DNA of 64,000 bases from Catellatospora citrea. Its GTDB lineage: Bacteria > Actinomycetota > Actinomycetes > Mycobacteriales > Micromonosporaceae. Position 1 is the first letter of the stretch. Each line of letters starts with the position of its first letter. The stretch covers positions 155,004 to 219,003 of the forward strand of contig NZ_RAPR01000002.1 of NCBI RefSeq assembly GCF_003610235.1, read 5' to 3'. Position numbers and translations under genes: made by a program. Under the pieces are notes generated by a model, which saw nothing but the letters and a program-made list of their open reading frames with translations, was not told the DNA's origin and made no database searches. This document shows positions 30,120 to 33,235 of this stretch, one piece after another.

Positions 30120-30803
30120 TCAAACCGAGCGGGCGAGGCGCAAGCCGAGGTCGTCGATGTGGAACGCAGGATGGCTGCGCCGGCGGCACGACGCCCGCAG
30201 CGCGCGCGGCAGGTCCTGCCAGCCGCCGCCGCGGAAGACGCGGTACGGGCCGTAGACGCGCGGGTCGTAGACGTCCCAGCACCACTCCCACACGTTGCCG
30301 ATCATGTCGTGCAGGCCCCACGCGTTCGAGGCCCTGGTCGCGACGTCACGGGCCGCGCCGCCGGAGTTGGCCCGGTGCCAGGCGGTCGCGTCGAGGTCGC
30401 CGTACCGTTCGCCGGTCGTCCCGGCGCGGCAGGCGTACTCCCACTCGGCCTCGGTCGGCAGCCGGTAGCCGCCGGCGCTCGGGTCGCAGGTCACGTCGTG
30501 GCCGTCGGGGTCGTCGCCGAGGGTGTAGCACGGCGCGCGGCCGGTCGCCGCCGACAGCTCGTTGCAGAACCGGACCGCGTCCAGCCACGACACGTCGGTC
30601 ACCGGCACCCGCGGCGACGCGGCGGCCCGGCCGCGCGGCGCCTCGTGCAGCTCGCGTGTCACCGGATGCGCCGCCAGCAGGAACGGCTCGACGTCGACGC
30701 GCCAGGTCCGTCCGGTGCCCTCGTCGCGCAGGTCGATGTGCCCGGCCGGGATTTCGATCATGTCGCCGACAAGGGTCGACAGCGACGTTGTTTCCCGTAA
30801 CAT
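30120..30803 (-). CDS. SUMF1/formylglycine-generating-enzyme family domain protein, likely without canonical catalytic pair
   Basis: 227 residues, shorter than true FGE. Clear family motifs: MIEIPAGHI, HPVTRELH, VPVTDVSWLDAVRFCNELSA, YRLPTEAEWEYACRAGTTGE, GLHDMIGNVWEWCWDVYD and VFRGGGW. The C-terminus reads ASCRRRSHPAFHIDDLGLRL: one cysteine is present, but the usual final GFRC cysteine is replaced by GLRL. So classical oxygen-dependent formylglycine formation is doubtful, and a non-FGE oxygenase-like or binding role is possible. No sulfatase lies nearby. It precedes the HTH gene by 62 bp on the same strand. Confidence 0.85.
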   Translation of the reverse strand: MLRETTSLSTLVGDMIEIPAGHIDLRDEGTGRTWRVDVEPFLLAAHPVTRELHEAPRGRAAASPRVPVTDVSWLDAVRFCNELSAATGRAPCYTLGDDPDGHDVTCDPSAGGYRLPTEAEWEYACRAGTTGERYGDLDATAWHRANSGGAARDVATRASNAWGLHDMIGNVWEWCWDVYDPRVYGPYRVFRGGGWQDLPRALRASCRRRSHPAFHIDDLGLRLARSV

Positions 30804-30873: not shown

Positions 30874-32136
30874 TTAGGGAAGCTTGGGGAACCTTGTCGC
30901 CATCCGGATGACCGTGGCGTGTGCCCTGGCCGCGATCTCGGCGTCCGTGCGGGCGGGGGAGTGCAGCGAGGTCGCGGCGTCGCCGGCGGCCAGCAGCGCG
31001 AGCACCGGCTGCCCGAGGCCGTTGGTCAGGTCCGCCCACTCGCACCAGGTGTCGGCGCCCTCGCCCCACCACAGGCAGCCGCCGGGGGAGACCGGCCAGA
31101 ACCGCTCCGGATAGCGCAGCAGCACCTTCTCCGCCCGGCCGGTGCCGATCCGGGCCAGCGCCGCCCGGTGCCCGTCCGGCAGGTCCACGGCCAGCTCCGG
31201 CAGCACGGCCAGGGGCACCGCGAGCACCACCCGGTCGGCGCGCAGCGTCCCCCAGGAACCGGTCAGGCTCACGCCGTCCAGGCCGGGCCGGACCTGCGCC
31301 ACCGGCCGGTCGAGGGCGACCTGCAGCCCGTCCGCCAGGCACGCGACGACCGTGCCGAGGCCGCCCGGCAGCCAGCGGTCGCCCTCGCCGATGCCGGGCT
31401 CGCCGAACGCGCCCCGGGCCGAGGCCAGCCCGAAGTCCAGCCCGGACTCCGGGGTCACCCCGGCCGCGACGGCGTACGCCAGGATGGGCCGGGACGGGGC
31501 GTCCCGCCCGGCGGCGTGGGCGGCGATCACCTCGGCGACGGGCCGGTCGGCCGCGGCGGTCAGCTCGTGCGCGGTACGGGCCAGCGCGTCGAGCGCCGCC
31601 CGCACACCCTGCACCCGGCCGTCGGCCGACAGCGTCAGCGGGTCCGTGAAGTCGGTCGGGACGGCGGGCAGCCCGCACGCGCGGGCCAGCGCGGCGAGGC
31701 TGTTGTCCGGATACTGCTGCAGCCAGGCCGCGCCCAGGTCGGCGGTGACGCCGCCCAGGTCGACCGAGTGCACCCGCCCGCCGAGGCGGCCCCGCGCCTC
31801 GAGGACCCGCACCCGGCGGCCGTGGCGGTGCAGCTCCCGAGCGGCGGCCAAGCCGGCCACGCCCGCGCCGACGACCGCGATCCGCTCGCCGGGCCGGCCC
31901 GCGGCCAGCAGGTGCCCGGCCGCGGTCAGGCCGGACTCGTACGCGCCGTGCACCATCGCCGGGCGGGTCGGGTGCACGCCCTCGCCGGCCAGCACCAGGC
32001 GGTCCGACACCGGCTCGGCCAGCCGGGCCCGGTCGGCGCCCGTGCCGCCGACGAGCAGGCCCGTCCACGCGCCACGCGACCAGGGGTCGGCGCACCACCG
32101 CGACACCGCCCACGCGACCGGCTGCGGATGGCCCAT
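30874..32136 (-). CDS. Flavin amine oxidase-like protein with circularly permuted domain order
   Basis: 420 residues. Residues ~5-78 (PVAWAVSRWCADPWSRGAW, LVLAGEGVHPTRPAMVHGAY, ESGLTAAGHLL) are what normally ends a monoamine-oxidase-type flavoprotein: the W..DPW segment, AGE, and HGA..SG that close the FAD site. Only then comes the usual N-terminal FAD motif IAVVGAGVAGLAAARELHRH (~86-105) and VLEARGRLGGRVH. The protein ends at TDAEIAARAHATVIRMATRF, the point where the C-terminal segment would normally begin. So the two ends appear swapped at one clean joint. The ATG lies 1 bp after the upstream stop, so the start is credible. Substrate unknown (amine or amino-acid oxidation expected). Confidence 0.85.
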   Translation of the reverse strand: MGHPQPVAWAVSRWCADPWSRGAWTGLLVGGTGADRARLAEPVSDRLVLAGEGVHPTRPAMVHGAYESGLTAAGHLLAAGRPGERIAVVGAGVAGLAAARELHRHGRRVRVLEARGRLGGRVHSVDLGGVTADLGAAWLQQYPDNSLAALARACGLPAVPTDFTDPLTLSADGRVQGVRAALDALARTAHELTAAADRPVAEVIAAHAAGRDAPSRPILAYAVAAGVTPESGLDFGLASARGAFGEPGIGEGDRWLPGGLGTVVACLADGLQVALDRPVAQVRPGLDGVSLTGSWGTLRADRVVLAVPLAVLPELAVDLPDGHRAALARIGTGRAEKVLLRYPERFWPVSPGGCLWWGEGADTWCEWADLTNGLGQPVLALLAAGDAATSLHSPARTDAEIAARAHATVIRMATRFPKLP

Positions 32137-32137
32137 C

Positions 32138-33235
32138 TCAGCCCAGCGTCAGCCAGGTGATGCCCAGTTCTCGCAACCGGGCGTGCTCGGCGTCGGACAG
32201 GACCACCCGGCCGGTGGCGCGGCGCAGCAGCCCGGCCCGGTCCACGTCGAGCTCCCGGGCCGCGCGGGGCGCGGACAGCCCGAACAGCAGGCCCTCGACG
32301 ACCCCGGCGGCCTGCGGGGTGAGCCACGGCGCGACGCCGAGGGCGTCGGCCAGGTCCAGGCCGTGCACGGCCAGCTCGACGACCCGGGTGACCTGGAAGT
32401 CGGTGAGCCGCATCGGGTCGCCGTGGCGGGTGGTGACCAGCCGCGACCCCGGCGTGCCGGCGGTCCGTGCCACCACCTGCGCGGCCTGCTCCTCGAACCA
32501 GTCGATCAGCTCCGCCGGAGTGCGCCGCTCGGCGAAGTCCTGCGCGGAGTCGACCCGTTCGCGGTCGGCCGGCGGGCTGAAACGCTCGTCGGGGGAGTAG
32601 TAGCGCGCCGTGTCGACCGGCGGGCCCGGCGGCCGCGGCGCGTCGAGCATGGCCAGGGTGCGCGACAGCGCGATCGCGGCATGGGCGAACTCGCCGCGCA
32701 CCGTCCACGGCGGGCAGCAGGTGGGCCGGTCCAGGTCCGCGGGCGGGGCGGCGCGCAGCGCCGCGATCAGTGCCGCCGACTCCGCGGCGGCCGCGGCCTC
32801 GACGGTGGTCGCGTCCGGGATCAGCGACGCCACCCGGAACCGCTCGGCGACCGCGACCGTGTCGTCGTCCACGGTGAAGTCCGGCCGGCCCAGGTAGCCG
32901 CGCATCTCGTCGGAGTGCCAGAAGCTCTCGTGCCCGGCCCGCCAGTCGGCGACCGAGGCGTAGCCCTCGCCTTCGTCGATCGCGTGCGCGAGGTCGATCT
33001 CGTCGAGCGGCACCAGCCGCACCTCGGTGACTTCGAGGATCGCCACCGGCTGCCCGTCGGAGTCGATCAGCGTCGACCGCTGGCCAGGTGAGGGCAACGG
33101 CTCGCTGTCGTGCTCGTACCCGAGCAGCAGCCCCGTCGAGGAGGTCTTGCTCCCGTCCAGCACCGCGGCCACCAGCTTGTCCCGCAACGGCCCCGGGAAC
33201 CCCAGTTCGTAATCGCTCAGCGAGTCGTAGACCAC
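32138..33235 (-). CDS. Fusion of ASCH domain and mycothiol-dependent maleylpyruvate isomerase-like domain
   Basis: 365 residues. Residues 1-~135 are an ASCH domain: LRDKLVAAVLDGSKTSSTGL, LPSPGQRSTLIDSDGQPVAI, and a DLAHAIDEGEGYASVADWR with SFWHSDE. This is a fold used in RNA binding or nucleoside processing. Residues ~143-365 are a DinB-like helical bundle of the MDMPI type (CCPPWTVRGEFAHAAIALSR; TDFQVTRVVELAVHGLDLAD). Mycothiol-dependent activity is expected for the second half in an actinobacterium, but the substrate is unknown. GTG start. Its stop is followed after 1 bp by the amine-oxidase ATG. Confidence 0.85.
   Translation of the reverse strand: MVYDSLSDYELGFPGPLRDKLVAAVLDGSKTSSTGLLLGYEHDSEPLPSPGQRSTLIDSDGQPVAILEVTEVRLVPLDEIDLAHAIDEGEGYASVADWRAGHESFWHSDEMRGYLGRPDFTVDDDTVAVAERFRVASLIPDATTVEAAAAAESAALIAALRAAPPADLDRPTCCPPWTVRGEFAHAAIALSRTLAMLDAPRPPGPPVDTARYYSPDERFSPPADRERVDSAQDFAERRTPAELIDWFEEQAAQVVARTAGTPGSRLVTTRHGDPMRLTDFQVTRVVELAVHGLDLADALGVAPWLTPQAAGVVEGLLFGLSAPRAARELDVDRAGLLRRATGRVVLSDAEHARLRELGITWLTLG

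Follow-up and report, generated by a model that had tools for sequence, protein, structure and literature searches.

Can a flavin amine oxidase carry at the start of its chain the segment that normally ends it? This question is raised by an open reading frame (ORF) of Catellatospora citrea, which has a genome of 9.3 Mb. The ORF lies in a 64,000-nucleotide stretch of contig NZ_RAPR01000002.1 (positions 155,004 to 219,003; hereafter the window). A sequence-only reading had described the gene product as a circularly permuted oxidase, and our analysis indicated that it is very probably a naturally occurring circular permutant within the flavin amine oxidase superfamily, of the LSD1/polyamine oxidase/monoamine oxidase (MAO) type. 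The permuted family is genuine and conserved, and probably functional. The coordinates of the features are collected in Table 1.

Order of the chain in the window oxidase

The Pfam scan of the oxidase returned Amino_oxidase (PF01593) at 179.3 bits (cut-off 19.8), split over three stretches, and neither SWIRM nor any other extra domain was found among the 12 Pfam families with E-values of at most 0.001. The order of the chain was classified with our own hidden Markov models (HMMs), built from residues 1–80 (CT) and 81–420 (BODY) plus their matches. In the window protein, CT was placed at residues 4–77 and BODY at 81–420, and the segment with the GE and HGA motifs, canonically C-terminal after the substrate domain, thus lies at 4–77. 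The alignment with human LSD2 (PDB 4gu0) is non-collinear, with query residues 72–156, 256–359, and 4–76 corresponding to residues 325–410, 529–637, and 701–773, respectively, the last of which closes the LSD2 chain. Both results confirm that the first ~78 residues are the usual C-terminal segment, and the VVGAGVAGL motif follows it at residues 88–96, as had been read.

Relatives were drawn from the best 120 of 285, the best 120 of 5706, and the best 120 of 5048 matches. In a first classification of 258 sequences, which covered 231 of the 236 database proteins along with 27 ORFs taken from selected loci, CT came first in 165 and last in 93. After the third search, 163 of the 293 classified database proteins were permuted and 130 had the normal order; five short or partial proteins among the 298 seen (P0020, P0024, P0067, P0073, and P0096) were unclassified. 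Two CT copies in one chain were found in 0/293 classified proteins. CT starts within 5 residues of the BODY end in 93/93 normal-order rows, in line with the claim that the opposite motif order is usual in the family. The chain ends within 10 residues of the BODY end in 153/155 permuted database proteins, which bears out the observation that the C-terminus stops where the moved segment would begin. Because the BODY/CT boundaries coincide in normal and permuted rows, the cut is placed at one site, before the P.P...W..DP strand. Between the equivalents of A73 and R85, 164/165 permuted rows have 8–12 residues, and such a constant linker length fits either one event or a tight structural limit. No clean sequence signature of the permuted rows was found, the sole candidate being R36, present in 98% of 52 permuted versus 44% of 55 normal representatives. 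The circular permutation is well supported by the HMM order, the LSD2 alignment, and relatives of the same order.

The AlphaFold2 models of two kinds of permuted protein, described below, were confident (pLDDT of 95 and 90), with a pTM of 0.93 for the monomer model of the window protein. In the proposed fold, the old C-terminal helix would end beside the first strand of the flavin adenine dinucleotide (FAD)-binding fold, and because these two elements adjoin, the old C- and N-terminus could be joined by the short linker of residues 78–80. The cut would fall in the loop that leads from the last body helix into the W..DPW strand, and the chain would close into the usual two-domain oxidase, with the moved segment supplying the GE motif and the flavin-side loop. 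The earlier suggestion that the FAD site could still assemble is well supported by the kept FAD motifs and by the confident, though predicted, model.

Comparison with known proteins revealed that members of PF01593 (MAO, polyamine oxidase, and putrescine oxidase) are homologous to the window protein over the whole chain after reordering and share the FAD motifs and the active-site lysine, but their C-terminal segment is N-terminal in the window protein. Among the solved structures listed, the amine-oxidase domain of LSD1/KDM1A and LSD2/KDM1B is the best sequence and fold match, whereas its order differs and the SWIRM domain of the KDM1 demethylases was not found in the window protein. The normal-order bacterial FAD-dependent oxidoreductases (e.g., P0208, P0178, and P0228) have the order BODY-CT, unlike the window protein; after reordering, the best normal-order matches of 31 permuted representatives share 38–58% identity with them. 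No permuted order was found in the PDB among the best 60 of 109 and 60 of 104 matches, in which no best stretch starts before profile position 82 or 119. Likewise, searches of open-licence PubMed Central papers brought up no description of a flavin amine oxidase permuted in nature. The window protein is apparently an undescribed natural variant of a well-known enzyme family, and to our knowledge few large cofactor enzymes have natural circular permutants. Annotation by the best Pfam match hides the permuted architecture. The wide occurrence of the permuted form and the existence of normal-order relatives up to 58% identical provide a ready system for direct comparison, opening the questions of how permuted genes originate, how the FAD fold closes with swapped ends, and whether chain order affects folding, export through Tat, or catalysis.

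Distribution and origin of the permuted order

In the family sample, a permuted copy was found in at least 17 of 150 genomes (the window genome included) among the 30 loci returned, a lower bound because weaker matches were unclassified. By genus, permuted copies occur in 6/11 genomes of the window's own genus, in 6/14 of genus g29, and in 5/5 of genus g7, where one copy (G098) matched over query residues 7–165 only. The nearest named relatives among the matches listed are P0002 (93%, C. chokoriensis), P0003 (91%, C. citrea), and P0004 (88%, C. sichuanensis), and a normal-order relative (L002/L003) coexists with the permuted oxidase in the window genome. Outside the family, 15 of 25 genomes of the Pseudomonas delhiensis group carry the oxidase, with nearly full-length matches of 73–98% identity to a permuted query. 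When 396 genomes of the phylum were searched with the signal-bearing P0088, 19 gave a match at 1e-40 or better, and all six loci checked for order, picked from the 20 returned for matches reaching the N-terminal part of the query, were permuted. In a scan of named genomes, L009 and L010 were the only permuted loci among the 58 listed. Permuted relatives are also present in many metagenomes, and the names that the sources attach to these proteins are, among others, Actinoplanes couchii, A. campanulatus, Symbioplanes lichenis, Pseudomonas citronellolis, and several Acidimicrobiia/Acidimicrobiales metagenome-assembled genomes (MAGs).

How often the order changed was analysed in trees built on reordered sequences, with FastTree for 258 rows and with IQ-TREE for 83, 67, and 72 rows. 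For the 83-row set, 22 named loci or proteins were set aside, among them long branches, a fragment, rows with inserts, and some locus ORFs, before clustering at 60%, and P0090 was left out of the 72-row analysis. The order changes needed are 7 in the 258-row tree, which carries a warning of joined long branches, 7 in the 83-row tree, and 3 and 4 in the 67-row and 72-row trees, in which the bootstrap had not settled; the starred branches force 6, 2, 1, and 3 changes, respectively. Bootstrap trees with a single order change made up 0% of 200 in each IQ-TREE run, permuted rows formed one clade in no free tree, and in the 72-row tree they are arranged as a grade surrounding a large group of normal-order rows. 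One permuted clade was not rejected by approximately unbiased tests (p 0.198, 0.354, and 0.261). One or a few permutation events are most likely. It is possible, with clearly lower probability, that the order changed repeatedly at one site, by several independent permutations or from a permuted ancestor with normal-order descendants; the superfamily would then have a pre-set permutation point reused in evolution. As to the route, tandem duplication with loss of the outer halves, which the sequence-only reading had proposed, is a hypothesis, neither demonstrated nor contradicted by the finding of no second CT copy in the 293 classified proteins. A CT-only ORF in G056 (L162, 2130–2675, plus strand) was considered as a split intermediate and rejected, since, read without a family scan, it resembles the leftover C-terminal end of a gene, and the sequence close by looks integrase-like.

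Three permuted proteins of 486–516 aa (P0068, P0069, and P0072, one of them named Actinoplanes sp. RD1) have a Pro/Gly/Ser/Thr-rich BODY insert after the TDF stretch that follows WLQQ. One genome (G133, C34 and C43) has two oxidase copies of equal score, perhaps an assembly duplicate.

Active site, cellular location, and alternative readings

Analysis of the alignment indicated that the FAD motifs are alike in permuted and normal order, and the window protein has both the GxGxxG motif (G90, G92, and G95) and the GGR motif (G119, G120, and R121). The flavin-side lysine, K337 in the window protein and presumably equivalent to LSD1 K661, is K in 145/165 permuted rows versus 89/93 normal rows, and it is kept in 69/69 rows of the window's own group (the permuted rows among P0001–P0072). 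At the place that we take to be that of LSD1 Y761 in the aromatic cage, all 69 rows of this group have R, Q, A, S, or M, versus Y in 35/93 and H in 31/93 normal rows. M61 is found in 81/165 permuted rows, versus T in 87/93 normal rows, and Q141 of the WLQQ motif in 76/165, versus the G of the WIHG type in 83/93. Judged by these residues, the window's group is a distinct subfamily, probably with a different substrate.

Two kinds of permuted protein can be distinguished. In the window's kind, CT mostly starts within about ten residues of the N-terminus (up to 36 in a few rows), and no twin-arginine translocation (Tat)-like motif was found. In the second kind, whose named members are largely Acidimicrobiia-type MAGs, mostly about 30–75 residues stand ahead of CT, often with a Tat-like signal. 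An RRxFL-like Tat motif precedes CT in 69/155 permuted database proteins and BODY in 42/76 normal-order ones. The position of the signal ahead of the moved segment suggests that the rearranged chain itself may be exported in the lineages of the second kind. The window oxidase has no signal peptide and is probably cytoplasmic. It is most likely an FAD amine oxidase, which would oxidise a small amine or amino acid to an imine, with the reduced flavin reoxidised by O2.

Several points weigh against this reading. The flavin-side lysine is missing from 20/165 permuted rows (18 R and 2 T), the residue at the place of LSD1 Y761 is the non-aromatic R58, and because R58 replaces the aromatic residue and WLQQ the common WIHG, the substrate may be no typical amine. 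No biochemical data on any permuted member came up. Foldseek and VIA-align keep the chain order and barely tested residues 4–76, the packing of which was judged from model confidence and not from superposition. The same replacements at the cage place throughout the own group and at Q141, together with neighbours that vary by lineage, would suit a flavoprotein that still folds but has lost amine oxidation, serving as a redox sensor or in a structural role; we consider this unlikely, as K337 is kept throughout the group and the gene lies in catabolic surroundings in one genus.

A domain-swapped dimer, with the FAD fold of each chain completed by residues 4–77 of its partner, would agree with the short linker, and swaps of terminal segments occur in general. 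The very confident monomer model and the near-constant linker count, as expected for one fixed short span, argue against it and make a swap improbable. It is still harder to credit that the order came from a frameshift, an assembly error, or two broken genes fused together and that the protein is non-functional. Shortened rows do exist, namely P0020 (named Catellatospora coxensis, 274 aa, without the CT segment) and P0012 (from a metagenome, 349 aa, without the GAGVAG region), each possibly reflecting decay in a single lineage. Against such an artefact stand the permuted open frames, conserved in their motifs, of the own genus, the Pseudomonas group, and many metagenomes. Full-length relatives of the same order in many genomes show that the gene is real and exclude the joining of two genes by frameshift or assembly error, the refutation that the sequence-only reading had itself named; chance or artefact as the source of the order was rejected on the same-order relatives across lineages.

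Gene neighbourhoods of the permuted oxidases

Table 1. Positions of the permuted oxidase, its parts, and related genes (window numbering unless a locus is named)
Feature	Position	Strand	Genome	Basis or remark
Circularly permuted flavin amine oxidase, 420 aa	30874..32136	-		ORF, Pfam, HMM order, LSD2 alignment
Moved segment, residues 4-77 (W14, AGE 50-52, HGA 63-65), C-terminal in the usual order	31906..32127	-		HMM order, LSD2 alignment, model
Linker, residues 78-80, old C-terminus to old N-terminus	31897..31905	-		Residue count in alignment
BODY, residues 81-420, start of FAD-binding fold to last helix before the normal C-terminal segment	30877..31896	-		HMM, model
Dinucleotide-binding GAGVAG, residues 90-95	31852..31869	-		G90, A91, G92, G95 invariant in 61 permuted sequences
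K337, equivalent of flavin-side active-site lysine	31126..31128	-		Alignment column
R58, at LSD1 aromatic-cage place	31963..31965	-		Alignment column
ASCH + MDMPI_N fusion gene, upstream of the oxidase by 1 bp	32138..33235	-		Pfam PF04266 + PF11716
KamA-like gene, permuted oxidase, lysine-fermentation-type set (lysine 5,6-aminomutase, KAL, KDD)	L160 10414-13131 and L161 763-3270		G047	

The oxidase starts with ATG one base after the stop codon of the upstream gene, and the earlier 1-bp spacing and ASCH-isomerase fusion were both right, the isomerase part being the DinB-like N-terminal domain of mycothiol maleylpyruvate isomerase. In 6/6 genus genomes with the oxidase, it is preceded on the same strand by this gene, with a gap of 1–37 bp in five and of about 0.7 kb plus another ORF in one (L100, 4300–4997, presumably SMI1/KNR4-like). 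This adjacency, from which an operon function had been thought likely, was found only inside the genus. Different genes flank the oxidase at the loci read from other lineages, so that the ASCH gene is of little help in judging the oxidase chemistry.

In the sister genus g7, a KamA-like radical SAM (lysine-aminomutase-like) gene lies directly upstream in 4/4 loci read, from four of the five genomes; one scanned copy scored 167.3 bits to TIGR00238, below the cut-off of 199.2. In G047, the adjoining genes encode L-erythro-3,5-diaminohexanoate dehydrogenase (KDD), both lysine 5,6-aminomutase subunits, and 3-aminobutyryl-CoA ammonia lyase (KAL), all above the NCBIfam cut-offs. This setting points to lysine-derived diamines as candidate substrates. 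In genus g29, four of the six loci read (L101, L102, L104, and L105, but not L103 or L106) have a common gene set, which we take to be a sensor kinase, a response regulator, and glucose-6-phosphate dehydrogenase, and two of these four also have a scanned SDF-family DctA-like transporter. Among 12 Pseudomonas loci read, an AbrB-type membrane protein gene lies upstream in eight and two SDR genes are present in three; in one locus (L149), the gene caller merged frames. With each lineage having its own set, the neighbours were rejected as a guide to one common function, and a single substrate is not derivable from them because only genus g7 points to a pathway. On the other side of the window oxidase, an FGE-sulfatase-like gene at 30120–30803 encodes 227 aa, versus 399 aa for the related call in L096.
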